Shown piece after piece: positions 12,643 through 42,587 of a DNA stretch of 64,000 bases (position 1 is the stretch's first letter; every line of letters starts with the position of its first letter). The position numbers and the translations under genes were made by a program. Where the stretch lies: positions 1-64,000 of the forward strand of contig JAUCGI010000002.1 in the NCBI GenBank assembly GCA_030378035.1. Direction: 5' to 3'. Source of the DNA: Desulfobacterales bacterium HSG2 (GTDB taxonomy: Bacteria; Desulfobacterota; Desulfobacteria; Desulfobacterales; 4be13). The notes beneath the pieces were generated by a model. That model worked only from the letters and a program-made list of their open reading frames with translations. It was not told the DNA's origin and made no database searches.

Positions 12643-12832
12643 TTGGCCCGAAAATCAGCCGCCTAAAAAATGGCGGGGAACAAAAACGGAATCAGCTTTC
12701 GGGAACATCGGCAACATTTTCATAACCCCAGTGCTGAACTCTGTTGAGGATTTCTGGTTTGGCGTTGTGAAACTGCCAAAAGTCATAAGCGTTAAGGGTT
12801 AAGGTTAATCATTAAAGAAAACAGCGCGTGCC

Positions 12833-13000: not shown

Positions 13001-13004
13001 CCAT

Positions 13005-13500: not shown

Positions 13501-13501
13501 A

Positions 13502-23890: not shown

Positions 23891-24772
23891 TTATCTTAAA
23901 GCTTCTATCAGAAGCAGAAGAACAAGGGGGATCATACAAAGTATCAGCACGGCTATCGTGACACCGGTAATGATACAGGCAAATGTCTTTATGGATCGGA
24001 AAGCCATGGGCCGTTTAGCTGATGAATAATGGCTTATTGCGGCAACTGACCATTCATGGATAGCTATCGAGAAAAGGCCGGCTATGATGAGAAGAGCGGC
24101 TGCGGGATACCAGAAATCTGATGAGCCCAGTCTGCTCCCCACACCGGAGTGGAGCATTCCGTATCCTATTCCTATGGTAAACATGCAAAATACGAAGATC
24201 AGTCCTGCCGTGACACCCCCCATAAAAAACCTGAATATGAATATCCGGTTGCTTGAAACAGATGCGATGAACAGGGCAAACTGTGTGGCAATGGTGATCG
24301 CTATGAAAGCCATGGCCATGATGACAAAGACAGAGGGCAGATCCACGCCTCTCAGGAGATAGGTCAGGGTCATAAAGGGGAGAAATGCACTGAAAATCAG
24401 GATATCTATAATGATGCCCGCAAAGAGCTTCCCTCTGATAATGGCGGTCGGACTGATCGTGGAGATGAAGAGAAGGTCCATGTTCTCTTTGGCACGCTCT
24501 CTGAACATGCGCGTCCCTGTATAGGCAGGCACAAAAAGCATGGACGGGACCATGAAAACGGAAAACAGGAAACTGAATGCCTCTCGCCCCATGCCCTTGT
24601 TCATTGTGGTTCCGGTGGTAATAAACAAGGCCATTGCTATCAGAAGTGAAACCAGAAAGATCATCAGAACACCCGTCACAAAACGGCTCCGGACGGCCTG
24701 CCGCAGCTCTTTGACCACAATCGGGTTAAGGTTGTCATCAATTTTTTCAATTATATGTTGAATGGACTTCAT
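23891..24772 (-). CDS. ABC-2-like permease paralogue D (short form)
   Basis: The start at 24772 (MKSIQHIIEKIDDNLNP) gives 293 residues, comparable to paralogue A and lacking the C-terminal half of B and C. The body has the conserved VKELRQAVRSRFVTG opening, the FRERAKENMDLLFISTISP loop, and about seven hydrophobic helices ending ILCMIPLVLLLLIEAL. It is the first of the four copies in transcription order. Since both outer copies are short and both inner copies long, the array may have arisen by two rounds of duplication. It may instead reflect two real architectures. Confidence 0.7.
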   Translation of the reverse strand: MKSIQHIIEKIDDNLNPIVVKELRQAVRSRFVTGVLMIFLVSLLIAMALFITTGTTMNKGMGREAFSFLFSVFMVPSMLFVPAYTGTRMFRERAKENMDLLFISTISPTAIIRGKLFAGIIIDILIFSAFLPFMTLTYLLRGVDLPSVFVIMAMAFIAITIATQFALFIASVSSNRIFIFRFFMGGVTAGLIFVFCMFTIGIGYGMLHSGVGSRLGSSDFWYPAAALLIIAGLFSIAIHEWSVAAISHYSSAKRPMAFRSIKTFACIITGVTIAVLILCMIPLVLLLLIEALR

Positions 24773-24865
24773 TGCACTTTCTACGGTTTTAAGAGATACG
24801 CACAAAGCGGAGGTTTGCACTCCGGAGAATAATTGACAAATCCGAACCGCCGGATTTGCCAATCC

Positions 24866-24983
24866 GGCGGGAGCGGAACCGGCGGAAGCGGAACCGGCGG
24901 GAGCGGAACCAGCGGGAGCGGAACCAGCGGGAGCGGAACCAGCGGGAGCGGAACCAGCGGGAGCGGAACCAGCGGGAGCGGAA
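24866..24983. repeat. 15-bp GGCGGGAGCGGAACC tandem array
   Basis: Eight units of 15 bp with the variants GGCGGAAGCGGAACC and AGCGGGAGCGGAACC lie between the permease D leader and the end of the truncated TPS gene. The unit length is a multiple of three, so both strands are open (Ala-Gly-Ser-Ala-Pro or Gly-Ser-Gly-Thr repeats), but no start signal supports a protein. Confidence 0.9.
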
Positions 24984-25029
24984 GGAACGACTCCCATACG
25001 CGTCAAGCTAAGACCGTGACCCCCTGTTT

Positions 25030-28000
25030 TTACCGGCATCCCGGAACGGCGGACCGTGACGGCCCGAAAGTAGGACTCGGCCGCAGATCATCCAAAGGCC
25101 TGGGTGCGGCGTCCGGTCCCTTAATCACAAAGCGGCTTCTCTTTCCGGTCCCCCTCTGTTCGCAGGGCGTCTTTGCCCATTTTGCCGCGTTCAGGTAGGT
25201 TTCGGGCATGACGGTCAGCGTCCCGCTGATATCGGCATCCGGGGCTTCGATCCTCACAGTTCCCTCATTGCCGCGCCTGGATGTTGCGGTCACGCCGCTG
25301 TCCGATGACCTGACGAAGTTCTCGGCGGTGATGAAGATCGCACCGCCGTCACCCTCATCCGCGTTGGCGGAGACGCCGGCCTGATTCAGAACCACGGATT
25401 CCGCGGAGAGGGAGACGTCCCCGCCGTTGCTTCCGCCCTGGCTGACATTGCTGGTGGCCGCAGCGTTCAGCAGGTATATCCGGTTGTCCGCGTCAACGGA
25501 AATCTGCCCGCCACCGGCACTCCGGGCCTCGGCACGGAGCGACGATCCGCCGGTCACTTCCACATTGTCTCCCGCCGAAATGCGGATTCTGCCGGCAGGG
25601 CCGCCGAAATCGGTTGAGTCACTGTCGGTGGTGACGGACGAGTCCGAACCGATCCGGATGTCGCCGGCTTCGATGTCGATGCCCCCGCCGCTGCCGTTTC
25701 CGGAGGTGGCGGTGCTGATGCTGCTTTTGCCGGTCACGCTCACGGAGCCGGCCCGGACAGCGACAGTTCCCGCCCGGCCGGCGGTTTCAAAAGGAACCCA
25801 TCCGCTTCCGTCATGCACAGAATATTTCGTGTCGCCGTCATTCCCGGAGATACGGATCACGTCCCCGGCCCGTGCGACAGGAGTGTCGGCTGTGTCTGAC
25901 ACGGTGAATGTCTGACCGAGCGGCAGCCACTCCTTTCCGGAATAGATCAGTGCGGAAGGGCTGCCCGCCCCGTCATCCGTTATATGCGCCACGTCCCCCG
26001 CCTTTGTCCGGACCAGGGCGTTCATCGCATTCATGTCGCCAACCTGATGCACGCTCCCGAAGGGAATCCATTCCCCGTCCGCATAGAGCAGGCGGGTACT
26101 CATATCCGCGTCGCCGGAGATGTTGGCCCCGGAGATGTTGGCCATGGTCCCGTTTTTAAGATCATACTGTTCCGAAAGGGCTGTCAGTTCCTCCGTGCCG
26201 GCGACTTCAAAATTCATGATTCGGATCACTCTTATTCTGTAAACACCGGGCGCGTCATGACGCTCCGCATAAGTGCAGAAAAACCGTGCCGGTTTTCCGC
26301 CCCCGGCATCCGTCACCTCGATCACCCTGTCCCGGGCCGCGGACGGGATATCCTCCCCCAGATGGCTGTGAATCTGAAAAGGGAGACTGTCCAGTTCGGA
26401 CATGCCGGCCATGGTTACCGTCTGATCCGGATTGTACGGTGCCCATCTTTCATGCCCCTCTGTGGAAGCCCGCATGAAGAGGGCGCTTTCCCCGTTGCCG
26501 GCATCGGTCACTCTTACCACGGCACCTTCGGGAACAATCCTCTGTCCTGGAAGCGATTCCAACGCGTTCATATCCGCCACGGTGTCATCCGCTAAAAACA
26601 GAAAGGTGTTCTCGCCCGTATAGATATAATCCGCGGACCGTCCGCCCTGCGCCTCGCTGATTCGGACAACGTCACCCTTGGTGAGAAACCGGCTGTCCCG
26701 CTCCCGGATGTCGGAAACCTCATGCGCGTTGATCCGGGTGCTTCTCGATGATATGACCGCACCCGATTCCATATCCAGACGGCCGACCCGCAGATCGATA
26801 TTTCCGGCGTTCCCGCCGCCCCCGGTGGCGGTGGACACGGTTCCGCCGTCGGAAAGAAGCAGGCGGTTCGCCTGAATACGGATATTTCCGGCCCGGTCGG
26901 AAAGTCCGCTCTTGTTTTCGGAGCGAATGTAAATTCCGCTTACGGACTTGTCGTAGAGTTCGGTGGAGAAGACCGTCATCCACCACAACTGATACACTCC
27001 CGGTTCAAGCAGCTCGGTTTGCGCGGAATCTCCGGACACGGTAATATCGTCCCGCACGGAGATATCAATGTCCCCGCGGCCGGCCGGAGAGTTGCCTCCC
27101 GAGCTGATGTTTGCGCCGTCCCTCAGTGTCAGGTTCCGCGCGGTCAGGGTGATGTTCCCGGTATCTCCCGATTCCCCGGCTCCGGAGGAAAGGGAGAGGG
27201 TATGAACGCCCGAACCGATGTCAATCGTCATTCCGTGAGGATTCACTCCGGATAATACGGCATCGCCCTCCACATGAACAGTAACATCTCCCCCGTTTCC
27301 GGACGGAAGGTTTGTATCAAATGAGGAAGTTGACGAATAAATGACGGCCCCGTCTGTCAGAACCAGTTCGCCCGCATTCAGTGTCACGTCGCCGGCGTCA
27401 CCGGAAGCATTGAATGTGTCTGTCCTGATCAGAGTGGCCAAACCCAGAATACAGACCCCTTCCAGGGCCACTTTGCCGCCGGCATTGACAATGACGTTTC
27501 CGGAATCTCCTGATCCGGCTGTCACACTGTAAATCTGTCCCCCGTCACGCATCTCCAGATCACCGGTTTCAATCCTGACGTCACCCGAACTGCCCAGGGA
27601 GTGTGACTCACAGGAGATCATGGTTCCCTGTCCGTAGGCGTCGTTTCCGGATAAACGGATGCGTTTTTCGGCCCGGAGGGTAACGTCGCCGCTATTGCCG
27701 GATCCTTTTCTGGAGATTGAATGGATAGATCCGCCGTCCTCAAGCAGAATCTCCTCCGCTTCGATCCGAATGCCGCCTCCGGTGCCCGCGTCCGGTTCCA
27801 TGCTGTCAGTAATCGTCTCAATCCTGCTTTCCGACAGGTTCGGATCGTTCCCTTTCAGTTGAACAACGGTCTCTGCCCGGACGGAGATATCGCCACCCCC
27901 GCCGCTGCCACGGGAGGCTGTGGCGATACGGAATCCGTCGTTCATCAGCAGGCTTTCGCACTCTATGTCAATACCGCGGCCGTCCCGGTCTTCCAAGGTC

Positions 28001-28953
28001 TCTGCACGGATACGGCCGCCTTCGGCAACGATCTTTCCCCCGCGGATAAAAATCCGGCCCCCGCCCCGGCCGGAGGTTTCCAGTACGGCGTTTCCGGACA
28101 GGGTCACATCGCCCATCCGGTCAAAACCGGTCAGGTCCGGATCCGTGTCTGTGAACCGGACCTCTCCGGCCGACCGGACCGCGCACAGACTGATCCGGCC
28201 GTCGGGCGCTTTCACGTCACCCGGAAGTTTCGTATCCGTGACCGGGTTGCCGTCTCCGTCCAGGACCGGCTCGCCGCTTTCATCTCTGCGCACGGCGGTG
28301 AAGCGGGTCCCGTTTCCGATGCTGATGTCACCCCCGGCCAGCATGATCTTCTTTCCCCCGGAAAGATGAAGACCGGTGGGATGATCTTCCCAGTCCCGCT
28401 CTGTGATTTCCCCTCTGCCCTCTGCCCGAATCGGAGCGACATCACCGTCCAGAAAGCCGAAGGCCGCGGGCGCGGCCACGGAGAGCACGTCGTTTGCACG
28501 GGGGAGGGCGTAAAACCGATCATTCCCGCCCATCCGCAGATAGTCGGCCGTGCTGACACGGAACGAACCGCCCAGGTCCAGAGACGCGTTCGGCCCGAAC
28601 ATCACGCCCGCGGGATTCAGGAAATACATATCCGCATCGGGAATTGCCGACGCGAGCCTGCCGTCAATCAGCGAGGCTTCGCCGCCGGTCACGCGGCTGA
28701 TGATGTTCCGCACCGAATCCGGGCCTGTGAAGGTCGCACTTTCGCCGGTGTGAATGTTGAACTGCTGGAAACTGTGGAACAGATTTGCTCCGGCCTGCTT
28801 TCCGTATTCGGCCCGAATATCATAATCCGGTCCCTGCAAATGTGATTCTCCCACGGAGCCGACAGTTCCGTCCAGTGTGATCTGGGCCTGGATCGGAACC
28901 ACGAGACTTATGGACAAAAGAATCATGACGGTCAGTTTTATGCTGTCTTTCAT
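25030..28953 (-). CDS. Two-partner secretion (TPS) domain exoprotein, C-terminally shortened
   Basis: The start at 28953 follows AAGGAGGCAAGATC and gives 1,307 residues. A Sec signal (about 1-28, ending IQA) precedes a filamentous-haemagglutinin-type TPS domain. Its motifs are AGANLFHSFQQFNIHTGESA and FLNPAGVMFGPNASLDLGGS. The rest is a beta-helix-like region rich in GGDISV, SGNVTV and AGNI repeats, with an insert (about 660-870) of IYTGE and VIEVTDAG repeats. It matches the N-terminal 1,290 residues of the neighbouring TPS-CHAT protein and then stops after PTFGPSRSAVPGCR, with the TPR-CHAT part missing. It is probably secreted by a TpsB pore encoded elsewhere. Confidence 0.85.
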   Translation of the reverse strand: MKDSIKLTVMILLSISLVVPIQAQITLDGTVGSVGESHLQGPDYDIRAEYGKQAGANLFHSFQQFNIHTGESATFTGPDSVRNIISRVTGGEASLIDGRLASAIPDADMYFLNPAGVMFGPNASLDLGGSFRVSTADYLRMGGNDRFYALPRANDVLSVAAPAAFGFLDGDVAPIRAEGRGEITERDWEDHPTGLHLSGGKKIMLAGGDISIGNGTRFTAVRRDESGEPVLDGDGNPVTDTKLPGDVKAPDGRISLCAVRSAGEVRFTDTDPDLTGFDRMGDVTLSGNAVLETSGRGGGRIFIRGGKIVAEGGRIRAETLEDRDGRGIDIECESLLMNDGFRIATASRGSGGGGDISVRAETVVQLKGNDPNLSESRIETITDSMEPDAGTGGGIRIEAEEILLEDGGSIHSISRKGSGNSGDVTLRAEKRIRLSGNDAYGQGTMISCESHSLGSSGDVRIETGDLEMRDGGQIYSVTAGSGDSGNVIVNAGGKVALEGVCILGLATLIRTDTFNASGDAGDVTLNAGELVLTDGAVIYSSTSSFDTNLPSGNGGDVTVHVEGDAVLSGVNPHGMTIDIGSGVHTLSLSSGAGESGDTGNITLTARNLTLRDGANISSGGNSPAGRGDIDISVRDDITVSGDSAQTELLEPGVYQLWWMTVFSTELYDKSVSGIYIRSENKSGLSDRAGNIRIQANRLLLSDGGTVSTATGGGGNAGNIDLRVGRLDMESGAVISSRSTRINAHEVSDIRERDSRFLTKGDVVRISEAQGGRSADYIYTGENTFLFLADDTVADMNALESLPGQRIVPEGAVVRVTDAGNGESALFMRASTEGHERWAPYNPDQTVTMAGMSELDSLPFQIHSHLGEDIPSAARDRVIEVTDAGGGKPARFFCTYAERHDAPGVYRIRVIRIMNFEVAGTEELTALSEQYDLKNGTMANISGANISGDADMSTRLLYADGEWIPFGSVHQVGDMNAMNALVRTKAGDVAHITDDGAGSPSALIYSGKEWLPLGQTFTVSDTADTPVARAGDVIRISGNDGDTKYSVHDGSGWVPFETAGRAGTVAVRAGSVSVTGKSSISTATSGNGSGGGIDIEAGDIRIGSDSSVTTDSDSTDFGGPAGRIRISAGDNVEVTGGSSLRAEARSAGGGQISVDADNRIYLLNAAATSNVSQGGSNGGDVSLSAESVVLNQAGVSANADEGDGGAIFITAENFVRSSDSGVTATSRRGNEGTVRIEAPDADISGTLTVMPETYLNAAKWAKTPCEQRGTGKRSRFVIKGPDAAPRPLDDLRPSPTFGPSRSAVPGCR

Positions 28954-29022
28954 GATCTTGCCTCCTTCTTCTCTGTTATGGTATTGGATTTCCGTGTCTG
29001 TAAACATGAACTTTTCCAGTTC

Positions 29023-32000
29023 TCAGAGCCAGTTCCCGATTAGCAGAAACGGGGCCCAGAATGCGGGATGGTCATATTCCGATTCGCTGATAAGCTTTTT
29101 CTGGGCATTCCGCAGGGCTTCTGCTTTTGAAATACCGGGCTGACCGATCTGCCGGTAAAATTCTCTCATCGTCAGAAACGCGGCCTCGTCGCTGACGGGC
29201 CAGAGGGTGGCAAGCACACTCTTCGCACCGGCTTTCAGGGCGGCACCCGCAAGGCCGAAGGCCGCCCGTGCATCCCCCGTGGCCGTTTCGCAGGCGCTCA
29301 GGGTCAGCAGTTCCGGGACCTCCCTCCGGTATCGCCTCAGCCCCACAAGCTCCTCAAGCCCGTCCATTGTCAGTATGCCGTCATAAGTTACCAGAAAAGT
29401 GTCCCGGGAGGTGCTGCCGAACACCGCGTGGCTGGCGATATGGAGGATTCCGTAATTCTGATTTGTGATCTCCGCCCGGAGTCTCTCTGTCGTGAAATCC
29501 CGGTTCATCAGAATTTTTCCGTCCGTGGCTGCCCGGACCGCCTCCAGTTCCCTTTCCACCTCCATCAGCGGAGAAAAGCCCTCTTTTGCTTCGGAAATCC
29601 CGCAGATGAGCGTCCGCCCGGATTCCTCCAGGGTCTGTCCGATATCGGTGAGACTCAGCGACGGAATAGTTCCCAGGGCATATTTTTCCACCAGAAAATG
29701 CTCGCCGTCGTGCAGTGCGGAGAAGGGGAGCAGGGAGAGCGGGCCGTCCGGCACGATGATCAGTGTATCAATGCTCCGGGAAGCGAATTCGCTCTCGGCC
29801 GGACGGATCAGCCAGTTGTAAAGACGCACAGCCTCTTCCTGAAAATCATCCGCTTTCTCTTCCAACAGTTCCCGGAATCTCTTCGCCGTGCTACATAACT
29901 GCCCGGCACTCACCGGAATTCTGATCTGCGTCAGGCGGTCCGGCAGCATCAGCATCAGATACAGGTGATCCGGCATCAGAATCGGACAGATCACCGCGGT
30001 GCCGGGAGAAATGTTCCCCCATATTCCGGTTCTGTCAAGATCGTTCAGACATTCGTCCCGGAAGAAATTCTCCAGTTCGGCTTTTTTCAGAAATTCCACA
30101 GTGTCCCATGCTTCTCTTATCAGGATATGGGAGGTTTCCGAAGTGTCAGCCGCTCTGAGAAGCAGTTCTGCCAGTTCACTGTAAACCGGTCTGACGTCTT
30201 TGTCAAAAATGTCTTTCAGCCCCCGGAATCCCGTGAAGAATTCTGTGCGGATCGGGTTCAGGGTTGCCACCGCGCGCTGATAGGATTCAATCCCTCGGCG
30301 GATGTCACCCTGCTTTGCGAACAGTCTCCCCGACTGTCGCTGCCAGCGATACAGAATTTCCGGGAAATATCCCTGCTGGGCGGAAAATATCGCCTTGCGG
30401 GTCAGTCTCACCGCGTCGTCGTAACGCTCTTTTTTCTCATAATACTGTCCCAGACAGCCATAAGCATAAGAGGCGATCCGGTTGTTCCGTATGTCTTCAC
30501 CGATACGGGCCGCCGCTCTCAGCCAGCCTTCCGTCCCGGCTTCCGAAGTCTCCGCGGCAAGCATGCTCAGAGAAATCAGGTCCGCGGCTTTGCCGTATGT
30601 CTCCGGCTGTCTCCCGATCACTTCCGCGGCCTGTTTCAGAGTGACAACCGCGTTCTGATGTTTCCCTTTTGTCATTTCCGTGCAGGCCGTGTTCAGCAGG
30701 ATTTTCGATTTCAGCGAGAGCGCCGCTTCGGAATCTCCCAAATACGGAAGGTACTCCCGATACGCGGCCAGCGATCTCCGGTAATCCATGTTCGACCGGA
30801 AATTCCCCAAGTTGTTCAGAACGCCCGATATGAGCAGCGGATTTCCGGTCCGGCGGGCATGGTCCAGGGCCTTTTTCAGATACTTCGTTGCCTCCAGCCT
30901 GTTTCCGAGGCAGAGATGAACATCCCCGAGACTGCTGAGAAGAATCGCCATGCCGGACGATCCGCATCTGTTTTCCGCATCCGGCAGTGTTTCCCGAAGG
31001 ATCGCAAGGGCCTTGCGATGATATCCGAGGGCAAGATACGCATGGGAGAGAAGTGCCGCATGATAAGCGGGCTTCTCCTGAAAAATCAGTTTTTCTTTTC
31101 CGGTGTCCTGTAAATTTGTTCTCCCTTCCAGCAGTCTCACCGCACCGGAGAAATCGCCTTTGCGAAAAAATTTGTCTTCCTCGGAATACGGATCAGGGAA
31201 AACGGGACTCGGCTGCAGATCATCCAAAGGTGTGGGCACGGCGTCCCGCCCTCTGATCTCAAAGCGGCTTCTCTTTTCGGCACTTCTCTGTTCGCATGGC
31301 GTCTTTGCCCATTTCGCCGCGTCTAAGTAGGTTCCGGGCATAACGCTCAGAGTCCCGCTGATATCGGCATCCGGGGCTTCGATCCTCACCGTTCCCTCAT
31401 TGCCGCGCCTGGAGGTTGCCGTCACGCTGCTGTCCGATGACCTGACGAAATTCTCAGCGGCGATGAAAACCGCGCCGCCGTCCCCTTCATCCGCGTTCGC
31501 GGAGACGCCGGCATGATTCAGAAGCACGGATTCCGCGGAAAGGGAGACGTCCCCACCGTTGCTTTCGCCCCGGCTGACATTGCTGGTGGCCGACGCGTTC
31601 AGCAGGTATATCCGGTTGTCCGCGTCAGCGGAAATCTGCCCGCCACCGCCACTCCTGGCTTCGGCGCGGAGCGCCGCACCGTCGGTCAGTTCCACAATAT
31701 TTCCTGCCGCAAGGCGAATTTTCCCGGCAGGGCCGCCGAAATCGGTTGAATCGCTGTCGGTGGTGACGGACGAGTCCGAACCGATCCGGATATCGCCGGC
31801 TTCAATGTCGATGCCGCCGCCGCTTCCGCTTCCGGAGGTGGCGGTGCTGATGCTGCTTTTGCCGGTCACGCGCACGGTTCCGGCCCGGATCGCGACAGTT
31901 CCTGCCCGGCCGGCGGTTTCAAAAGGAATCCATCCGCTTCCGTCATACACAGAATATTGCATGTCATCGTCACCGTCGGAGATACGAACCACATCCCCGG

Positions 32001-35000
32001 CCCGGGCATCAAGGGAGTCGGCATCGGCTGTGTCTGACACGGTGAATGTCTGACCGAGCGGAAGCCATTCTTTTCCGGAACAGATCAGTGCGGAAGGGCT
32101 GACGGTACTGTCATCCGCCTTATGCACCACATCCCCCGTCTTTGTCTGAATCAGGGCGTTCATCGTATTCATATCGTCAGTCTGATGCATGCTGCCGAAC
32201 GGAATCCATTCCCCGTCCGCATAGAGTACGCGGGTGTTCATATTCTCATCTTCGGAGATATTGGCCTCGGAAATATTGGCTATGGTTCCGTTTTTAAGAT
32301 CATACCGTTCCGAAAGGGTCGTCAGCTCATCCGTTCCGGTGACTTCGAAATCCATGATTCGGATCACTCTTATTCTGTAAACACCCGGCGCGTCATGACG
32401 CTCCGCATAGGTGCAGAAAAACTGTGCCGGTTTTCCGCCCGCATCCGTCACCTCAATCACCCTGTCCCGGGCTGCGGACGGAATATCCTCCCCCAGTTTG
32501 CTATAAATCTGATAAGGGAGACTGTCCAGCTCGGACATGTCAGCCATTGTTATCATCTGATCCGGATTGTACGGTGCCCATCTTTTATGTCCTTCTATGG
32601 AAACTCTCATAAAACGGGCGACTTCCCCGTTGCCCGCATCGCTTACGCTTACCACGGCGCCTTCGGGAACAATCTGCTGTCCGGGAAGTGCTTCCAAAGC
32701 CTCCATATCCGCCACGGTGTTATTCGCCAGAAACAGAAAGAGGGCCTCGCCTGTATAGATATAATCGGCAGACCGTCCGCTCTCCGCGTCGCTGATTTGG
32801 ACAATATCACCCCTGACGAGAAATCGGCTGTCCCATCCCCGGCTGTCAGAAATTTCATGCGCGTTGATCCGGGTGCTTCTTGACGATATGACCGCACCCG
32901 ATTCCATTTCCAGACGGCCGACCCGCAGATCGATATTTTCGGCGTTTCCTCCGCCCCAGGTCTCGGTGGATATGGTTCCGCCCTTGGAAAGAACCAGGCG
33001 GTCTGCCTGAATACGGATATTTCCGGAGTAATCGGAAAGTCCGATTCTGTTTTTGGAATGGATGTAAACTCCGCTCACGGACTTATCGTAGAGTTCGGTG
33101 GAAATGAGCGTCATCCACCACAACTGATATACCCCCGGTTCAAGCATTTCTATGTGTGCGGAGTCTCCGGACACGGTCATCGTATCCTGCACAAGGATAT
33201 CAATGTCTCCTCCGCTGACCGGAGCGTTGCCTCCCGCGCTTCCCGAGCTGATTTTTGCACCGTCCCGTATTGTCAGGTTTCGGGCAGTCAGGGTGATGTT
33301 TCCGGTATCTCCCGGCTTACCGGTCCCGGAAGAAAGAGAGCCTGTGTGAACGCCTGAACCGATGTTAACCGTCATTCCGTGGGGATTCACTCCGGATAAA
33401 ACGGCATCACCTTCCACATGGACCGTAATGTCACCTGCATTTCCGGATCGAAGGTCTGCATCTAATGCGGAAGTTCCCGAATAAATGGAGGCCCCGCCTG
33501 TCAGAACCAGTTCGCCCGCATTCACGGTCACGTTGCCGGCATCTCCGGTAGCATTGAAGGTGTCCGCTCTGATCAGACTGGGCAAACCCGAAGCAGCCGT
33601 TCCTTCCATCGCCACTTTGCCACCGGCGTTCACAGTGACGTTTCCGGAATCACCTGATCCGGCTGTCACACTGAAAATCTGTCCCCCGTCGCGCATCTCA
33701 AGATCACCGGTTTCAACACTGACATCGCCCGAACGGCCTGACGCTTTTGATTGGCAAGAGATAAAACTTCCCTCTCCGAAGGCATTGTTTCCGGATAAGC
33801 GGATGTGTTTTCCGGCCCGAACAGTAATATCGCCGCCATTCCCGCTTCCTTCCGAGTTTGTGTAAACAACTCCGCCATCCTCAAGCAGAATCTCCTCCGC
33901 ATCGATCTGAATCTTGCCTCCGGTGCCCGCGTCCGGTTCAATGCTGTCAGTAATCGTTGTAATTTCGCTTTTCGACAGGTGGATCGGATTTTTTCCTTTC
34001 AGTTCAACAGTGTCCGCCCGGACGGAGATATCGCCTCCTCTGCCGCTGTCACGGGAACTTGTGATGATACGAGATCCGTCGTTCATCAGCAGGTTTTCGC
34101 ACCCGATATTAATGCCGAGGCCGTCCCGGTCTCCCAGGGTCTCTGAACGGATATGGCCAGTTTCAGCAACGATATTTCCCCCGCGGATAAAAATCCGGCC
34201 CCCGCCCCGGCCGGAAGCATCCAGCAAAGCGTTCCCGGAGAGGGTTACATCGCCTGCCCGGGTGAAATCTGTCAGGACCGGGTCGGTCTCTGTGAACCGA
34301 ACCTCCCCGGCCGACCGGACCGCGCACAGACTGATCTGCCCTGCGGGCGATTTCAGCTCGCCGGGATATTCCGTATCCGTGACCGGATTGCCCTCTCCGT
34401 CCAGGACCGGCTCGCCGCTCTCATCTCTGACCACTGCGGTGTATCGGGTTCCGTTTCCGATGCGGATGTCACCGCCGGCCAGCATGATGTTTTTTCCCTC
34501 GGAAACACGGAGACCGGTGGGGTGATTTTCCCAGTCCTGCTCCGTAATTTCCCCTCTGCCCTCAGCCCGAATCGGAGCGACATCGCTGTCCAGAAAACCG
34601 AAGGCCGCGGGCGCGGCCACGGAGAGCACGTCGTTTGCATGGGGGATGGCATAAAACCGCTCATTCCCGCCCAGCCGCAGATAGTCGGCCGTGCTGACAC
34701 GGAACGAACCGCCCAGATCCAGAGACGCGTTCGGCCCGAACATCACGCCCGCGGGATTCAGGAAATACAGATCCGCATCGGGAATTGCCGACGCGAGCCT
34801 GCCGTCAATCAGCGAGGCTTCGCCGCCGGTCACGCGGCTGATGATGTTTCGCACCGAATCCGGGCCTGTGAAGGTCGCACTTTCGCCGGTGTGAATGCTG
34901 AACTGCTGGAAACTGTGGAACAGATTTGCTCCGGCCTGCTTTCCGTATTCGGCCCGAATATCATAATCCGGCCCCTGCAAATGTGATTCTCCCACAGAGC

Positions 35001-35094
35001 CGATAGTTCCGTCCAGTGTGATCTGGGCCTGGATCGGAACCACGAGACTTATGGACAAAAGAATCATGGCGATCAGTTTTATACCGTTTTTCAT
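29023..35094 (-). CDS. TPS-domain exoprotein with TPR repeats and C-terminal CHAT peptidase domain
   Basis: The start at 35094 is preceded by AAAGAGGCAAGATC and overlaps the stop of the upstream gene (ATGA). The 2,023 residues consist of a Sec signal, a TPS domain (about 28-200), a beta-helix passenger with GGDI/AGNV repeats, a TPR-like helical region (about 1310-1690) and a CHAT caspase-like peptidase domain. The CHAT catalytic pair is visible as His1889 in HIASH and Cys1935 in LSACETATGDARAAFG. CHAT domains are cysteine peptidases of the separase/caspase clan, frequent in bacterial conflict and self-killing systems. The fusion implies a peptidase exported to the surface. A truncated paralogue lies 69 bases downstream. 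Confidence 0.88.
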   Translation of the reverse strand: MKNGIKLIAMILLSISLVVPIQAQITLDGTIGSVGESHLQGPDYDIRAEYGKQAGANLFHSFQQFSIHTGESATFTGPDSVRNIISRVTGGEASLIDGRLASAIPDADLYFLNPAGVMFGPNASLDLGGSFRVSTADYLRLGGNERFYAIPHANDVLSVAAPAAFGFLDSDVAPIRAEGRGEITEQDWENHPTGLRVSEGKNIMLAGGDIRIGNGTRYTAVVRDESGEPVLDGEGNPVTDTEYPGELKSPAGQISLCAVRSAGEVRFTETDPVLTDFTRAGDVTLSGNALLDASGRGGGRIFIRGGNIVAETGHIRSETLGDRDGLGINIGCENLLMNDGSRIITSSRDSGRGGDISVRADTVELKGKNPIHLSKSEITTITDSIEPDAGTGGKIQIDAEEILLEDGGVVYTNSEGSGNGGDITVRAGKHIRLSGNNAFGEGSFISCQSKASGRSGDVSVETGDLEMRDGGQIFSVTAGSGDSGNVTVNAGGKVAMEGTAASGLPSLIRADTFNATGDAGNVTVNAGELVLTGGASIYSGTSALDADLRSGNAGDITVHVEGDAVLSGVNPHGMTVNIGSGVHTGSLSSGTGKPGDTGNITLTARNLTIRDGAKISSGSAGGNAPVSGGDIDILVQDTMTVSGDSAHIEMLEPGVYQLWWMTLISTELYDKSVSGVYIHSKNRIGLSDYSGNIRIQADRLVLSKGGTISTETWGGGNAENIDLRVGRLEMESGAVISSRSTRINAHEISDSRGWDSRFLVRGDIVQISDAESGRSADYIYTGEALFLFLANNTVADMEALEALPGQQIVPEGAVVSVSDAGNGEVARFMRVSIEGHKRWAPYNPDQMITMADMSELDSLPYQIYSKLGEDIPSAARDRVIEVTDAGGKPAQFFCTYAERHDAPGVYRIRVIRIMDFEVTGTDELTTLSERYDLKNGTIANISEANISEDENMNTRVLYADGEWIPFGSMHQTDDMNTMNALIQTKTGDVVHKADDSTVSPSALICSGKEWLPLGQTFTVSDTADADSLDARAGDVVRISDGDDDMQYSVYDGSGWIPFETAGRAGTVAIRAGTVRVTGKSSISTATSGSGSGGGIDIEAGDIRIGSDSSVTTDSDSTDFGGPAGKIRLAAGNIVELTDGAALRAEARSGGGGQISADADNRIYLLNASATSNVSRGESNGGDVSLSAESVLLNHAGVSANADEGDGGAVFIAAENFVRSSDSSVTATSRRGNEGTVRIEAPDADISGTLSVMPGTYLDAAKWAKTPCEQRSAEKRSRFEIRGRDAVPTPLDDLQPSPVFPDPYSEEDKFFRKGDFSGAVRLLEGRTNLQDTGKEKLIFQEKPAYHAALLSHAYLALGYHRKALAILRETLPDAENRCGSSGMAILLSSLGDVHLCLGNRLEATKYLKKALDHARRTGNPLLISGVLNNLGNFRSNMDYRRSLAAYREYLPYLGDSEAALSLKSKILLNTACTEMTKGKHQNAVVTLKQAAEVIGRQPETYGKAADLISLSMLAAETSEAGTEGWLRAAARIGEDIRNNRIASYAYGCLGQYYEKKERYDDAVRLTRKAIFSAQQGYFPEILYRWQRQSGRLFAKQGDIRRGIESYQRAVATLNPIRTEFFTGFRGLKDIFDKDVRPVYSELAELLLRAADTSETSHILIREAWDTVEFLKKAELENFFRDECLNDLDRTGIWGNISPGTAVICPILMPDHLYLMLMLPDRLTQIRIPVSAGQLCSTAKRFRELLEEKADDFQEEAVRLYNWLIRPAESEFASRSIDTLIIVPDGPLSLLPFSALHDGEHFLVEKYALGTIPSLSLTDIGQTLEESGRTLICGISEAKEGFSPLMEVERELEAVRAATDGKILMNRDFTTERLRAEITNQNYGILHIASHAVFGSTSRDTFLVTYDGILTMDGLEELVGLRRYRREVPELLTLSACETATGDARAAFGLAGAALKAGAKSVLATLWPVSDEAAFLTMREFYRQIGQPGISKAEALRNAQKKLISESEYDHPAFWAPFLLIGNWL

Positions 35095-35868: not shown

Positions 35869-36019
35869 GTTTACTCTTGCTCTTGCTCTTGCTCTTGCTC
35901 TTTATCTTGCTCTTTATCTTTATCTTGCTCTTTATCTTTATCTTTATCTTTATCTTGCTCCTGATAAGAAACAAGAGCAAGAGAAAGAAAAAGAGAAAGA
36001 GAAAGAGAAAGAGAAAGAT
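35869..36019. repeat. CTCTTG/CTTTAT and GAGAAA hexamer palindromic tract
   Basis: About 80 bp of CTCTTG and CTTTAT hexamers turn at TCCTGATAAGAAACAAG (about 35958) into GAGCAA/GAGAAA hexamers, forming a long imperfect hairpin. It lies between the ABC ATPase gene and the downstream 250-residue gene and might act as a transcript boundary. Confidence 0.9.
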
Positions 36020-36028
36020 TGCCACTTC

Positions 36029-36958
36029 TCACTGAACTTCCCCCTTGGTAACGCGCATGAAGATATCTTCAAGATCGCTTTGTTGCAGTTTGAATTCTGA
36101 AATTCTGTGACCCTGCTGCACGAGGGCCGCCAAAAGATCGCTTCCGTCTTCTTCTCCGCCTTCCAGTTCAACCTGTATTTCTTTCCCGGAATGGCGGACA
36201 TCCTTTACTTTCGGCATTTCCATCAATGCCTTGAAAAGAGCGTCCTGTCTGTTGCATGACCGCACAAGCAGGCTAAGGTGCGGCGTCTTTTTCTCCACCA
36301 GTTGCTCGATAGTACCGGTTTGGAGGATCTTTCCCTGCTCAATAATGATTGCACCGTCGCAAAGCTCTGTAAGCTCCGTCAGAATATGAGAACTGATAAG
36401 GATGGCTTTGTCCTGTCCGGAAAGGATCTTCAGTAATTCCCTAAGCTCAATTCTCGCACGCGGATCAAGTCCTGCCGCGGGTTCATCCATCAGAAGCACA
36501 GGCGGGTCATGGACCAGGGCCCTTGCCAGGCTGACACGTTGCTTCATCCCTTTTGAAAGGGCTTTGAGCATCTTCTCACGGATACCTGTGAGGTTGGTAA
36601 ATTCCTCCACGCCTTCAATGCTCTGTCTGCGTTTTTTCCCTTTGAGTCCGTAAGCACGGGCAAAAAAATCAAGATATTCATGAACGGTAATATCATTATG
36701 CTCGGGCAGGGTGTCCGGCATAAAGCCGATTGTTTTGCGGACTTCTTCGGGATACTGGGTAACGGAGAATCCATTAATGTAAGCGTCTCCTCCCGAGGGA
36801 TCGTCAAGGGTGGCAAGAATTCGCAGGGTCGTGGTCTTACCTGCTCCGTTCGGTCCCACAAACCCGAAAATCTGCTTTGATTGGAACTCGAAAGAGATAT
36901 TTTTCAACGCATGGGTTTTACCGAACTTTTTCTCGAGATTTTTGACTTTGATTTTCAT
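36029..36958 (-). CDS. ABC transporter ATP-binding protein (CcmA/ABC-2 type)
   Basis: The 309-residue ATPase has Walker A GPNGAGKT at 35-42, the signature LSKGMKQR at 134-141 and Walker B VLLMDEP at 154-160, with the D-loop AAGLDP following. The D-loop and a C-terminal accessory domain of about 90 residues (LSLLVRSCNRQDAL ...) place it in the drug/Nod-factor/ABC-2 exporter class. It lies 20 bases after a large membrane protein gene and upstream of four permease paralogues on the same strand, so those are likely partners. A GTTTAGTGTTTGGTGTTTGG simple repeat lies just before its start. Confidence 0.92.
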   Translation of the reverse strand: MKIKVKNLEKKFGKTHALKNISFEFQSKQIFGFVGPNGAGKTTTLRILATLDDPSGGDAYINGFSVTQYPEEVRKTIGFMPDTLPEHNDITVHEYLDFFARAYGLKGKKRRQSIEGVEEFTNLTGIREKMLKALSKGMKQRVSLARALVHDPPVLLMDEPAAGLDPRARIELRELLKILSGQDKAILISSHILTELTELCDGAIIIEQGKILQTGTIEQLVEKKTPHLSLLVRSCNRQDALFKALMEMPKVKDVRHSGKEIQVELEGGEEDGSDLLAALVQQGHRISEFKLQQSDLEDIFMRVTKGEVQ

Positions 36959-36978
36959 TTTTGTTTGGTGTTTGGTGT

Positions 36979-38853
36979 TTAGTGTTTGTTTGTTTGGTTT
37001 TTCATGATGCCGAAAACGACGGCGTCTGTGTTAAGATTATCCGGGTCTGCCAATCCTTTTTCAATGAAGGGGCAGCCTTCCAGCAAGGCAATATAGCTAT
37101 TGGGACGGAGATGTTTGTCTGCCCAGTTTTTCAGATGCTCCGGGTTCTGTTTCCAAGAGAAAGAAGTATATATTTCGCGAAACGGATCCGTGTCTGTCTC
37201 AGGCGCGGCTTTCATTCTTGTGGGCCGAGGAGCGGAACGTGATCCAGCGGGGATATTGTTGTCTGCATATATCCTCCCGTCCTGATCCGAGAGCCAGAGC
37301 TTTTTTATATGCGCCCCTAATCCGTTTACAACCATCGGGTTGCCCCGTTCTGTAAAGCTCAGTTCAAGGCGTTCACGTCTTTTTTCGGTTTTTCTCACCA
37401 TGAAATGCGCGGGCACACGGGCGGTGATCCATCCTGATTTAAGATGCTGATCCGCTGTCCAGTCAATGGAGAGCGGGATCCCTGCTTGGTCATACTTTGA
37501 GATCATCGGGGTCAGTTCTGTCTGATTTGAGAAATGCAGGCCCGCTCCCGGGGTCAGACGGCAATAAAACGCTGTGATGCCCAAGGTGACCGCCTCATGG
37601 GAAGTTTCATCTAAAATGGTGAAGCCGCTTGTTCTGATATCCGAGTCAAATCCCTCTGAAAGAGTCGCATAAGCAAAAATCGAGGCGCATGTGAATAATG
37701 AAATCGCCGGAATGGTCCACATCAGCCATATTTTCTTTTTTTTCCTGGCCAGAATGATGAAATTTACCGGGCCAACCACAATCACAAAGAGAAGCATTCC
37801 TATGAAGAATCCTTTAATGTTTATTCCTGTACTTTCGATAATGGGAAAATATTTGTTTGCCGATTCCGAATCTTTAATGTTCCTCCAGGGAAGCTGGGTT
37901 TTTCTCCATATCTCATCCAGATATTTTAACTGTTCATCCGTAATCTCATCAATGTCTGAGACGGGAAGCACAACACATTGCCCGAAGCCGGTATGATAAA
38001 TAACCGCTCCGCTGTGATGTTTCTGCTCCGTCTGAATCCGGGAAGCAGGCTTATGAAAATCTCCGAGAACCGTCAGGGTTCCGCCGCATTTCACATAAGA
38101 GAACACTGCTGACTTCACAGGCGCGGGCATGGCCTCCATATCCGCATTCTTGAGGATAATGCCGTCATATCGGGAATAACTCAGCCAGTTCCTGCTCCAT
38201 AAATCCGGAGTCTGTTCGGAGTGTATCAGGTTCAGATTATCTTTGTTTGGAAGCAATTGCGTCTCTGTCTGTGTTTTTTTCCTGCGGCTATATCTACGTT
38301 TTCTACGTTTGTCATACCAACTCGGCGGAAGTTCTGATTTACTTTTATCCCAGGGTCTGTTAAGCAGATCATCTCTGTTAAGAGAACTGCTTATCAGTAT
38401 AGATAATGGTTCTCTATATCTATCCGAGATGTGCTTGCTGTAAGGAACGCTTAAAGATTGCTCCTGTCTGTCACCGTCGATATGGATATATCCTTTGTGT
38501 CCCCAAAAGGGGAGGGCCGGCTGGAGCATTGAGGCTGTTACCGTTGACCCGGGAGATACGGCAATCGACCGACTCAGTGTTTGTATATAAGTGCCCCGGT
38601 CATATCTGTCGCTGGAAAATGAGACCGCAACCTGATGAGGGGCTTTCGGAGAATGGTTTGTCACGATCAGCCGGTACTCAAAATATCCATGCCAAGTTTC
38701 TCCTTCGAGCGTATGGCATGCGACAGAGACATCTCCGAACCGTTGTGCCGAAGCGTTATATGTCCATACAAGCAGTAACACAAACAGAATGGCGTAAGTT
38801 AATCGACACGTCAGCGATTTTGAACAATTGTCAGTTGCAAACTGTAAATTCAT
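36979..38853 (-). CDS. Large membrane protein of a MoxR/ABC cluster
   Basis: The start was placed at 38853 (624 residues) because a signal sequence (RLTYAILFVLLLVWTYNASA, ending near residue 37) follows directly and GAGGAAT precedes it. The periplasmic N-terminal part resembles the GATase-like extracellular domain of uncharacterised proteins found between MoxR and ABC transporters. Two membrane helices lie in the middle (FFIGMLLFVIVVGPVNFIIL and IWLMWTIPAISLFTCASIFA), followed by a beta-rich C-terminal domain. It sits between moxR and the ABC ATPase on the same strand, so it probably belongs to that export or gliding-type complex. The exact role is unknown. Confidence 0.7.
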   Translation of the reverse strand: MNLQFATDNCSKSLTCRLTYAILFVLLLVWTYNASAQRFGDVSVACHTLEGETWHGYFEYRLIVTNHSPKAPHQVAVSFSSDRYDRGTYIQTLSRSIAVSPGSTVTASMLQPALPFWGHKGYIHIDGDRQEQSLSVPYSKHISDRYREPLSILISSSLNRDDLLNRPWDKSKSELPPSWYDKRRKRRYSRRKKTQTETQLLPNKDNLNLIHSEQTPDLWSRNWLSYSRYDGIILKNADMEAMPAPVKSAVFSYVKCGGTLTVLGDFHKPASRIQTEQKHHSGAVIYHTGFGQCVVLPVSDIDEITDEQLKYLDEIWRKTQLPWRNIKDSESANKYFPIIESTGINIKGFFIGMLLFVIVVGPVNFIILARKKKKIWLMWTIPAISLFTCASIFAYATLSEGFDSDIRTSGFTILDETSHEAVTLGITAFYCRLTPGAGLHFSNQTELTPMISKYDQAGIPLSIDWTADQHLKSGWITARVPAHFMVRKTEKRRERLELSFTERGNPMVVNGLGAHIKKLWLSDQDGRIYADNNIPAGSRSAPRPTRMKAAPETDTDPFREIYTSFSWKQNPEHLKNWADKHLRPNSYIALLEGCPFIEKGLADPDNLNTDAVVFGIMKNQTNKH

Positions 38854-38907
38854 ATTCCTCACTTTTCTGAAAAAATCCTGATGACAACACCTTTTGGGAA
38901 GCAAGGT

Positions 38908-38967
38908 GGATTCCGGGTCAGAATTGAAAAAATGTCCCATTTTTTCAATTCTGCCCGGAATGACAGG
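38908..38967. repeat. Dispersed hairpin repeat
   Basis: GGATTCCGGGTCAGAATTGA is mirrored by TCAATTCTGCCCGGAATGAC around a TGTCCCATT loop region, giving a stem of about 25 bp. The same hairpin with a few changes occurs inside the MITE at 48326-48468 and, in degraded form, near 540-590. It lies between moxR and the large membrane protein gene. Confidence 0.75.
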
Positions 38968-39032
38968 GCATGATGTCATTCCTGGTAAAGCGTTATAATC
39001 AGAAAAAATCCTCTTCTTATGTGAAATCCTGA

Positions 39033-40049
39033 TCACCTGATCTCTATATTATTCGGAAGATTCATTCCTGTTTCATCCGTTTCTGAGATCAATTCCTGTA
39101 AAACAGCCTGTGAATCCATGCGGTCAATTCGGGCCTTGTAGTTGAGAATGAGGCGGTGATTCAGGGCGTGGGCCGCGACCGCCTTGACATCTTCAAAACC
39201 GACCGCTGGCCGTCCTTCGAGCAGGGCATGGCCACGGGCGGTCTCCGCGATGCCGATGGCTGCTCTGGGCGAGGCACCGAAAGAGACGTAAGCCCGCACT
39301 TTTTCCGTTGCTTCTGCGGACTCGGGATGCGTCGCTCCCACCAGCCGGGAGATATACCGGGCCACCGGCTCGGGGAGGATCATGCGATCCATTACGGCAA
39401 AGAGTTCATTCAGCTTCTCGGCATCCATTGACCAGTCCGGAGACGGCGGCTTTCCGCGCCGCCGCGTGGATATGATGGCACTCAGTATTTCAGGTGCCAC
39501 CGGATTGACATTCAGCTTGAAAAGAAAGCGGTCAATCTGGGCCTCGGGCAGCGGATAAGTGCCCTCCAGCTCAATGGGATTCTGAGTCGCCAGAACAAAA
39601 AACGGATCCGGCAGTTTTCTGGTCGCGCCGAGCAGTGTCACAGACTGTTCCTGCATGGCCTCCAGCAGGGCAGACTGGGTTTTCGGCGTGGCCCTGTTAA
39701 TTTCGTCAGCAAGGAGGATATTCGTAAAGACCGGGCCTTTTTGAAATATCATCTTCCGTGTGCCGTCACCGGTCTCCTGCAAGATATGGTTTCCGAGAAT
39801 ATCGCCCGGCATGAGGTCAGGCGTAAACTGTACCCGGTTATACACGAGACCCAGGAGCTTTGAGAGGGTCTTTACCAGAACCGTCTTGCCCACGCCGGGG
39901 AGACCCTCTAAGAGAACATGGCCTCTGCTGAGAAGAGAGACCAGTATCATCCGGTGAACACGGGAATGTCCCAGGATAATCCGGTCCAGCTCATTCAAAA
40001 GATTTGATGTCAGTTCGTTGGCTGACTTTATTTCCTGTGGTGTAAGCAT
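39033..40049 (-). CDS. MoxR-type AAA+ ATPase (left arm, complete)
   Basis: The 338-residue protein from the ATG at 40049 is a MoxR-family AAA+ chaperone-like ATPase. It has Walker A GLPGVGKT at 49-56, Walker B LLADEINR at 112-119 and the sensor ATQNPIELEGTYPLPEAQID further on. MoxR proteins insert metal cofactors or mature partner complexes, often with vWA proteins, and none is seen next to it here. A longer frame upstream is only the TGATGCTTGA repeat read as codons. That repeat runs up to the start codon and leaves no Shine-Dalgarno. Most of the gene (from 39592) is inside the palindrome, and its partner is at 63543. Confidence 0.92.
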   Translation of the reverse strand: MLTPQEIKSANELTSNLLNELDRIILGHSRVHRMILVSLLSRGHVLLEGLPGVGKTVLVKTLSKLLGLVYNRVQFTPDLMPGDILGNHILQETGDGTRKMIFQKGPVFTNILLADEINRATPKTQSALLEAMQEQSVTLLGATRKLPDPFFVLATQNPIELEGTYPLPEAQIDRFLFKLNVNPVAPEILSAIISTRRRGKPPSPDWSMDAEKLNELFAVMDRMILPEPVARYISRLVGATHPESAEATEKVRAYVSFGASPRAAIGIAETARGHALLEGRPAVGFEDVKAVAAHALNHRLILNYKARIDRMDSQAVLQELISETDETGMNLPNNIEIR

Positions 40050-40313
40050 AATAGTTGATGTTTGATGCTTGATGCTTGATGTTTGATGTTTGATGTTTGA
40101 TGCTTGATACTTGATGCTTGATGCTTGATAGTTGATGCTTGATGCTTGATTCTTGATGCTTGATGCTTGATGCTTGATAGTTGATGCTTGATGCTTGGAA
40201 TTCGGAATCTGATTATCCAGTATCCAGTATCCAGTATCCAGTATCCAGTATCCAGCATCCAGCACCCAGCATCCAGCATCAAGCATCCAGCATCCAGCAT
40301 CCAGCATCAAACA
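40050..40313. repeat. TGATGCTTGA / ATCCAGT simple-repeat tract (left)
   Basis: The tract fills the whole space between the S41 peptidase stop and the moxR start. It holds TGATGCT/TGATGTT-type units near moxR and CCAGTAT/CCAGCAT units near the peptidase gene, with a 20-bp unique hinge (about 40196-40216). The peptidase stop codon TGA is itself the first repeat unit. Long frames in both directions are repeat artefacts. Confidence 0.9.
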
Positions 40314-42383
40314 TCAAAACGCCCCGATATCCCTCTTCAACCCATCCACCCGAATTTCCTCATGGGGATTCCCGGTTTGCTTCGGCCGGGATGAGCCTGA
40401 CTCATCCGTGCAGGTGCCATTTGAAATATAATAGAGGGCCTCTTTGAGAGACGCTTCCTCTGTGTCTCCGAACTGGCGGGTCAGGTCATCATCCGCATAA
40501 CATGCGGGCGGGATGCCCTCGAAGTAGTCGCCTTCGTCCTGAGCGTTTACGGTACTGAATTCGGCCGGAGCGATGTGGATACCGCAAAAATCCCATCCGT
40601 ACATTCCGACAGGTTTGCCTCGGGTGGTATCTCCAATGGAAATCACGTCCACAAACGGCTCAAGGCCATTCATTACCAGCTCGCTGGCAGAGCAGGTGGA
40701 TGCTGTGGTAATGCATACGACCCGATCCAAACTGAGGGCGCTTTCCGGTTTGGTGAAACGGGTTGTCTCGTTCCAACCCATGTATCTGCTGTTATGAACG
40801 GATTTCGCAAACGGTTTTCCAAAAGCGCGGTCTCCTGCAATCAGACTTGCCAGATGACGCGCGACGGAAATCTCTCCGCCCCGATTATATCTCAAATCCA
40901 AAACCAGTTCATCAATCTCACTCTCTTTAAAATAGGCAAATACTGTATCCAGTTCTTCCAGAGCCGTTTCAACAAATGTATTGAATACCAAGTAACCGAC
41001 TTTTAATCCGTTACTCTCCAGTATGTCGTAAAACAGAATCGGGTCTGTTGTCAACCATTCCTTCTCCAGATTCAGTTCCCTGATCCCGCCTTTCGGGTCT
41101 TCGATTTTCAGTTGAACCTTTACGTCCGGTTCATTCTCGCCGAAGATCGTATTCCAGAGATCATCAAGCCGGATTTCCGAAAGTGTTTTGTCATTAATTT
41201 CAAGGAGCTTGTCGCTTCTCTTCAAACCGGCTTTGTCTGCCGGTGAATCTTCATGGACAAAACTGATCCTGCAATCCCCCTTGCGATCAAACTGAGGACT
41301 GAATCCCGCGCCGATGTATCTCCCTTTTTCAAAATAGGCGTAATGTGCTTCTGTCGAAGTAATGTAGCTCCATTTATCCAAGTCCTTGTATTTCATATCC
41401 TCCAACAGCGATTGCGGTGAGGCATAGCTTCTGTAATCAATTTCCGGAACCTTGTCGTACCATAGATATGTATCTTTCATCACTTCATAGACAAATTTGT
41501 TCTGTTCTTCCACCGGACAGCCGGGAGATATCCGATATTCATGTCTGACATATCCGCTATCCGGATCTGTTTTGACATTCTCAAGATATGCGTCGCCATA
41601 AGGGAAATCGGAATAGACCCTGACAACTGTCCCGGACACATGAAAGAAATCCACGGCGGCTTTTCCGCCAATGTCAAAACGGATTTTGACAAAAATATCC
41701 GGGTTGTTCTCGCTTCCCCAACTGACGTCATCCGGGCTGGCATAAAAATATCCCCATATAATTTTATGGCCCTCAGGGGTCGTATCTTCTCCGACTTTGC
41801 GCCAGACAGGATTGATCAGCCCCTTTTCCGGGGTACGGATCAACGCGGCAATGACTATGCCGATCTTCGTGGGATAGCCCGAAAGGCTGCCCGTGGGCCA
41901 GTACAGGTGATCTTCAGACAGATTATCGGCTTCATCATTCTCGTCCGTGTCACTCCGGCCGTTTTCATAATACTGCCGGATATGCCTTTTTGAGAGGGAT
42001 GTGGTTCCATGCTCGTCCGCGGAACCGTCATAAGGATAATCTGAGTAAACATCCATATCCGGCCCCGATATGTGAAAAAAGCTGACGTCCAAGCGTCCGC
42101 TTCTGTCAAACCATATTTTGACAAACATATCCGGGTTATGGGGACTTCCCCAGCCGGCACCGTCAGGATCCGCGTGAAAATAGCCCCAGATCACAGAATC
42201 CCCTTCTTTGTCCGTAGTTTCGCCCCCCTTCTGCCAGACCGCTTCAACCGGGCTTCCTTCCTTCGCATGGATGACTGCTCTGATCCAGAGGTCGGAGGCG
42301 ACCATGTTGCCACTCGCGTAAGCTGTTCCGCCAACTGCAAAAGCCGTAATTAGTATGATGATGAATCGTATGATCTTTTTCAT
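40314..42383 (-). CDS. S41 family peptidase with tandem N-terminal beta domains and PDZ (left)
   Basis: This 689-residue exported serine peptidase has a signal peptide (about 1-24). Two repeats of about 115 residues follow (30-140 and 175-265), each with an IWGYF, DP/SPDD, NPD-FVKI-FD and FFHVS pattern. A PDZ domain comes next (about 355-440), then the S41 catalytic domain. The Ser/Lys dyad is visible as S565 in TCSASE and K590 in RGKPVG, 25 residues apart as in C-terminal processing peptidases. It should cleave C-terminal regions of proteins outside the inner membrane. It lies 204 bp downstream of a paralogue on the same strand. Confidence 0.88.
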   Translation of the reverse strand: MKKIIRFIIILITAFAVGGTAYASGNMVASDLWIRAVIHAKEGSPVEAVWQKGGETTDKEGDSVIWGYFHADPDGAGWGSPHNPDMFVKIWFDRSGRLDVSFFHISGPDMDVYSDYPYDGSADEHGTTSLSKRHIRQYYENGRSDTDENDEADNLSEDHLYWPTGSLSGYPTKIGIVIAALIRTPEKGLINPVWRKVGEDTTPEGHKIIWGYFYASPDDVSWGSENNPDIFVKIRFDIGGKAAVDFFHVSGTVVRVYSDFPYGDAYLENVKTDPDSGYVRHEYRISPGCPVEEQNKFVYEVMKDTYLWYDKVPEIDYRSYASPQSLLEDMKYKDLDKWSYITSTEAHYAYFEKGRYIGAGFSPQFDRKGDCRISFVHEDSPADKAGLKRSDKLLEINDKTLSEIRLDDLWNTIFGENEPDVKVQLKIEDPKGGIRELNLEKEWLTTDPILFYDILESNGLKVGYLVFNTFVETALEELDTVFAYFKESEIDELVLDLRYNRGGEISVARHLASLIAGDRAFGKPFAKSVHNSRYMGWNETTRFTKPESALSLDRVVCITTASTCSASELVMNGLEPFVDVISIGDTTRGKPVGMYGWDFCGIHIAPAEFSTVNAQDEGDYFEGIPPACYADDDLTRQFGDTEEASLKEALYYISNGTCTDESGSSRPKQTGNPHEEIRVDGLKRDIGAF

Positions 42384-42442
42384 AAGCGCATTGCCTGTTC
42401 GTTAGGAATATAATGATAATAAGTACATTTGTCATCTGCTAC

Positions 42443-42582: not shown

Positions 42583-42587
42583 TTGGG

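Follow-up and report, generated by a model that had tools for sequence, protein, structure and literature searches.

A two-partner secretion exoprotein fused to a predicted TPR-CHAT cysteine protease in Desulfobacterales bacterium HSG2, and its apparent place in a conserved gene set

Positions 1 to 64,000 of contig JAUCGI010000002.1 of Desulfobacterales bacterium HSG2 (assembly GCA_030378035.1; hereafter the window, meaning this whole stretch of 64,000 nucleotides) contain a gene whose product starts as a two-partner secretion (TPS) exoprotein, or TpsA, and ends in tetratricopeptide repeats (TPRs) followed by a caspase-like CHAT peptidase domain. Where would a peptidase attached to a secreted passenger sit, and on what would it act? 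An earlier sequence-only reading of this DNA had described a single 2,023-residue TPS-TPR-CHAT chain with a Sec start and had placed its CHAT domain at the cell surface. The chain is real. Its frame, which lies on the minus strand (a point absent from that reading), runs from the ATG at 35094 to the TGA at 29023 with no internal stops, and Pfam and NCBIfam domains mark its parts (Table 1).

The N-terminal TPS domain stands behind a Sec signal, as in other TpsA proteins, and is also matched by NCBIfam TIGR01901 at residues 59-136 (E 1.8e-21). The passenger that follows consists of G-rich repeats that presumably form a beta-helix. TPR_12 of Pfam matches residues 1382-1449 at an E-value of 5e-7, only just above its cut-off. 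PF12770 matches the C-terminal domain with 206.5 bits against a cut-off of 24, and this domain has both the caspase-like fold and the His/Cys dyad of CHAT peptidases. Judged from its sequence, the protein joins an entire TpsA passenger to an entire predicted TPR-CHAT cysteine protease.

Table 1. Features of the TPS-TPR-CHAT gene and its two flanking genes, in window coordinates.
Feature	Position	Strand	Basis
TPS-TPR-CHAT gene, 2,023 aa	29023..35094	-	intact frame; Pfam and NCBIfam domains
Sec signal peptide, residues ~1-24	35023..35094	-	MKNGIKLIAMILLSISLVVPIQAQ, judged by eye
TPS secretion domain, residues 23-265	34300..35028	-	PF05860, E 2.3e-31; TIGR01901, E 1.8e-21
Passenger, G-rich repeats, residues 266-1257	31324..34299	-	sequence; aligned with three paralogues and P0003
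Joint with end-of-passenger signature DAAKWAKTPCEQRSAEKRSRFEIRGRDAVPTPLDDLQPSP, residues 1258-1298, including C1267	31201..31323	-	comparison of passenger-end signatures
TPR helices, residues ~1310-1650	30145..31167	-	TPR families; helical pairs in AlphaFold2 model
Cys1682	30049..30051	-	invariant in 52/52 of the TPS-linked CHAT clade
CHAT domain, residues 1753-2021	29032..29838	-	PF12770, E 7.8e-61; fold match to Craspase TPR-CHAT
Predicted catalytic His1889	29428..29430	-	56/56 complete homologues
Predicted catalytic Cys1935	29290..29292	-	56/56 complete homologues
Passenger-only tandem copy, 1,325 aa, ending at the same signature, without TPR-CHAT	25030..29007	-	amino-acid and nucleotide alignment
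Upstream protein P0002, 250 aa, N-terminal membrane helix	35091..35843	-	stop overlaps TPS-CHAT start by 4 nt

His1889 and Cys1935 occur in the CHAT motifs at the positions given by the sequence-only reading. Their conservation, which that reading had named as a check, extends to every complete homologue compared (13 fused and 43 without a fusion label; among the latter, L043, L049 and L055 are fusions whose frame omits the TPS domain). Within the TPS-linked CHAT clade, Glu1673 is as invariant as Cys1682 (52/52 sequences), and a DEC-like motif was found in none of 17 control CHATs. Modelled with AlphaFold2 on the basis of 52 homologues, residues 1300-2023 reached a predicted local distance difference test (pLDDT) score of 89.7, and the closest solved relatives of the model are the TPR-CHAT chains of Craspase (best Foldseek match E 3.4e-14, template modelling score 0.5), with separase lower in the same list. 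Since a sequence search of the PDB with the CHAT profile alone gave no significant match, the link to Craspase rests on fold. The window protein shares with Craspase TPR-CHAT (Csx29) the TPR-CHAT architecture, the dyad and the fold, but it is predicted to be exported, belongs to a group fused to or encoded beside TPS genes, and is only 13-14% identical. Furthermore, it has no adjoining gRAMP/Cas7-11 gene; no CRISPR effector was seen among the neighbours examined, and eight proteins scanned around the gene contain no Cas domain.

To what extent the pairing of TPS and CHAT recurs was addressed by a scan of 84,980 species genomes, which yielded 78 loci. Within these, TPS-CHAT fusions are confined to Thermodesulfobacteriota, and a tree of 66 sequences, 18 of them fusions, shows four label changes, at least two of which are forced. 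Separate, neighbouring CHAT and TPS genes, mostly with TpsB or DUF928 nearby, were found in Pseudomonadota, Nitrospirota, Methylomirabilota, Verrucomicrobiota and Cyanobacteriota, so that the pair, fused or neighbouring, spans at least six phyla including Thermodesulfobacteriota. All five genomes sampled from HSG2's own family (f1) have fusions. The complete genome of the culturable Desulfonema magnum encodes one TpsB together with both fused and stand-alone CHATs.

Because the 78-locus sample favours loci that contain both domains, we made two unbiased checks, one on 40 related genomes searched by family and one on cyanobacterial plasmid loci chosen solely for their CHAT sequence. Among the 40 genomes, a CHAT gene lies within 4 kb of 8 of 23 TpsB loci, compared to 0.19 expected (Poisson tail 4e-11), and in G038, a member of another family, TpsB ends 185 bp before a TPS-CHAT fusion. 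Among the plasmid loci, DUF928 adjoins the CHAT gene in 6/8, CHASE2 in 4/8, TPS in 3/8 and a sigma-70 gene with DUF1822 in 3/8; one of them has TPS, ShlB, CHAT, DUF928 and CHASE2 in a single row. These stand-alone exported CHATs are similar in CHAT sequence (32-40% identity) and have the same neighbours as other TPS-linked CHATs, but they are separate genes annotated by domain names only. Overall, the recurrent partners of TPS-linked CHAT are TpsB, DUF928 and CHASE2, joined by a FecR/MtxA-type protein for the nearest relatives of the window CHAT. Both halves of the protein are known families that public records annotate separately, and the fusion belongs to an apparently undescribed conserved gene set, which points to a cell-envelope protease system. 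A literature search found no paper combining CHAT with TPS, hemagglutinin or DUF928, although its coverage was incomplete and this is weak evidence of absence.

The unfused relatives bear most directly on where the enzyme sits. A signal-type N-terminal hydrophobic segment is present in 41 of the 43 stand-alone CHAT partners (the other two being one start cut off by the contig edge and one borderline case), compared to 4 and 8 of 40 internal stretches put to the same test. Five carry a lipobox-like motif, and none contains a TPS domain. As no TpsB route is known for a protein without a TPS domain, the stand-alone partners should be periplasmic. The unfused TpsA proteins provide the second clue. 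In 50 of 68 of them, the signature DA..W.KTPC..RS.E..SRFV..GRDA.P...DD..P is found 0-66 residues from the C-terminal end, and it sits at the joint, before the TPRs, in 15 of 15 fusions tested. A looser Cys pattern matches 54/68 TpsA proteins compared to 33 of 389 control open reading frames (8%), and the signature is absent from three classic TPS passengers with a distant TpsB (G011, G015 and G017). Since the joint falls where unfused passengers end, the fusion is a whole TpsA followed by a whole CHAT protein, and by parsimony the fused CHAT would keep its periplasmic place. These sequence comparisons lead us to prefer a model in which the passenger is at the surface and TPR-CHAT in the periplasm over one with a surface-displayed CHAT, the periplasm being the more parsimonious location.

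As a working explanation, to which we assign a little less than an even chance, TPR-CHAT is a periplasmic cysteine protease dedicated to TPS, with the C-terminal signature of TpsA as its likeliest substrate and either anchoring or maturation and release as the outcome. Sec would export the whole chain, and a TpsB whose gene lies on a different contig, next to that of a stand-alone exported CHAT, would thread the TPS domain and the beta-helix to the surface. The folded TPR-CHAT would remain in the periplasm, where its unfused relatives should reside, and act there as the TPS locus's own protease, presumably cutting the Cys-containing signature both within the fused chain and in those HSG2 passengers that have no CHAT. 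Cleavage would determine a passenger's fate, anchoring on the one hand and maturation or release on the other. A suggestive parallel is LapG, a periplasmic cysteine protease that governs the TPS adhesin CdrA by cleaving its periplasmic tail (PMC5422565). The likeness would be one of role: the catalytic domain here is CHAT, which is a different peptidase family from that of LapG, and the enzyme is built into or encoded beside its presumed client. Compared to the TPS (type Vb) exoproteins FHA, HMW1 and CdrA, with which it shares a Sec signal, an N-terminal TPS domain, a long repeat passenger and a ShlB/FhaC-type TpsB in the genome, the window protein differs in the predicted TPR-CHAT protease that follows the passenger end, and in that a single TpsB must serve about 12 TPS genes in HSG2. 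A more detailed version, which we put forward as somewhat doubtful, holds that a caspase/separase-like protease is the dedicated processor of a widespread TPS subclass. Its periplasmic reading of the Cys signature, with Cys1682 possibly pairing with the signature's cysteine, would set anchoring or release and might be reported to a CHASE2 kinase; in the window, this processor would be built into the passenger itself.

Several observations weigh against periplasmic processing. The 78 loci were ranked by similarity to the fused query, which inflates their adjacency rates, and neither TpsB, DUF928, CHASE2 nor MtxA is among the neighbours of the window gene. Sec signals were judged by a hydrophobicity window and, for the window protein, by eye. 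In addition, export signals, mostly accompanied by a lipobox-like cysteine, were seen in 12 of 17 control CHATs from this order that have no TPS link. The supposition that CHAT peptidases are usually cytoplasmic therefore fails in this order, and with many more exported CHATs around, a signal peptide does not single out the TPS-linked ones. The proposal that the signature is the substrate draws on position and co-occurrence only, with patterns defined post hoc. Finally, the CHAT part could reach the surface, as large TpsA proteins can be secreted whole.

Of the alternatives, outside-in signalling survives best, although we consider it unlikely. Here the passenger would sense contact, and the activated periplasmic TPR-CHAT would cut or engage a FecR/MtxA-type or DUF928 protein, which would signal to a CHASE2 kinase or a sigma factor. 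The nearest relatives of the window CHAT (on C217 and C112, and L044 of HSG8) have FecR/MtxA-type and CHASE2-kinase genes beside the fusion, and of the five MtxA_C genes in the 40 related genomes, four are no more than about 6 kb away from a TPS-linked CHAT. The CHASE2 and sigma-70 genes of the cyanobacterial plasmid loci fit the same picture, and Craspase TPR-CHAT is an allosterically switched protease (PMC9729208). The top fold match of a DUF928 model is the C-terminal domain of MtxA (E 6.5e-5); an equation of the two by sequence was rejected as not significant (hhalign probability 3%), the likeness being in fold only. However, the window locus has no MtxA, DUF928 or CHASE2 gene, and many fusions are without a CHASE2 neighbour in the stretch examined. 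Signalling and periplasmic processing are compatible with each other.

The surface-exposed peptidase of the sequence-only reading fares less well. In that model, secretion and display extend to the CHAT part of the chain, which acts on extracellular substrates. CHAT and a TPS domain do belong to a single chain, passage of large TpsA proteins through TpsB does occur, and LepA is a secreted TPS protease (PMC5422565). On the other hand, the Sec-type, TPS-free stand-alone partners would have no such route, the joint coincides with the normal C-terminus of TpsA, and, as a matter of general knowledge, TPR-CHAT would need to stay unfolded for passage through TpsB. We therefore regard a displayed CHAT as improbable, and the accompanying suggestion that it kills neighbouring cells found no specific support. 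Least probable is that CHAT serves in vivo as a scaffold through which TPR-CHAT anchors the passenger or binds partners. TPRs are generally known as protein-binding repeats, but a pure scaffold would not need a His and Cys that are invariant in all 56 homologues across phyla.

If the processing explanation is correct, a caspase-like protease is built into TPS in a large and mostly environmental subclass, whose members include sulfate reducers such as filamentous Desulfonema, as well as Thioploca, Competibacter, Nitrospira and Nostoc, and a maturation enzyme would be encoded inside TPS loci. It would also extend the separase-like CHAT family, which is chiefly known from Craspase, to a role in the envelope, and provide a C-terminal signature by which surface-protein anchoring could be tested in bacteria that form filaments or aggregates.

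The rest of the HSG2 genome, searched as 5.6 Mb at 72.6% completeness, contains matches to 15 CHAT, 14 TPS and one ShlB-type TpsB, with one CHAT and two TPS matches being palindrome duplicates (see below). Four TPS-CHAT fusions are present, on C144 (the contig of the window), C235, C217 and C112. The TpsB partner that the sequence-only reading had proposed to look for thus exists, not adjoining the window gene but on C233, where this ShlB protein with POTRA directly precedes a signal-bearing stand-alone CHAT, itself followed by DUF928. The fusions on C217 and C112 are adjoined by a FecR/MtxA-type protein and a CHASE2 histidine kinase; MtxA-type (FecR-like) and CHASE2 genes were located beside fusions at L032:4267-8216, L034:1-3782 and L044:17342-22101. 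C217 also carries three tandem CHAT genes with near-identical signal peptides (L033:496-12061). A P-loop-like gene (MKIWLKERIGKPELFTGRKKEL...) recurs beside TPS-CHAT, TPS or CHAT genes (L032:1580-3352 and 12525-14270, L034:4532-6340, L036:15714-17048), and the sole copy scanned, L034:4532-6340, had no Pfam match. Elsewhere, giant CHAT frames of ~2,820-2,890 aa without a PF05860 match occur in several families of the order (G014:C71, G016:C3, G025:C166, G027:C449, G002:C1:412510), and the CHATs of the order that are not TPS-linked (L140-L152, for example L142, L143 and L149), being mostly exported and in many cases lipobox-like at the N-terminus, form a broad class of envelope CHAT proteins.

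Contig C144 (103,591 bp) is a hairpin palindrome with identical arms, its mismatches being confined to 51447-51796. Consequently, second copies at C144:68564-74560 are not real paralogues, and we rejected the second gene copy there as a palindrome artefact. Within the window the inverted repeat covers 39592-64000 with its centre at 51796, so genes right of the centre duplicate those on the left. The arrangement is probably an amplification or an assembly hairpin.

The two genes flanking TPS-TPR-CHAT differ in their relation to it. The passenger-only copy is 80% identical to the TPS-CHAT passenger over 1,302 aa and 86% identical over 3,890 nt, with the nucleotide similarity stopping exactly at the passenger end; a CHAT remnant behind this copy was looked for in the nucleotide comparison and none was found. 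P0002, which has no Pfam match, had been proposed as a coupled membrane protein controlling the peptidase. Its homologues (58-59% identity) in two genomes of the same family, G001 and G004, sit among unrelated genes rather than beside TPS or CHAT, so we rejected it as a partner; it is probably a chance neighbour outside the system. A defence system was rejected as well, as PADLOC gave just weak BovA and TPR matches, and the search for viral relatives returned TPR matches only. Past the two TPS genes lies a GldF-like putative ABC permease gene (23891-25039), and on the other side, at 36029-44729, are a GldA-like ABC ATPase, a MoxR-type ATPase and two S41 processing peptidases. Upstream of P0002, simple AAGAGC/AAAGAT-like repeats take up the intergenic region (35870-36030), and similar KRERELKRER-type low-complexity frames are found elsewhere in the HSG2 genome.

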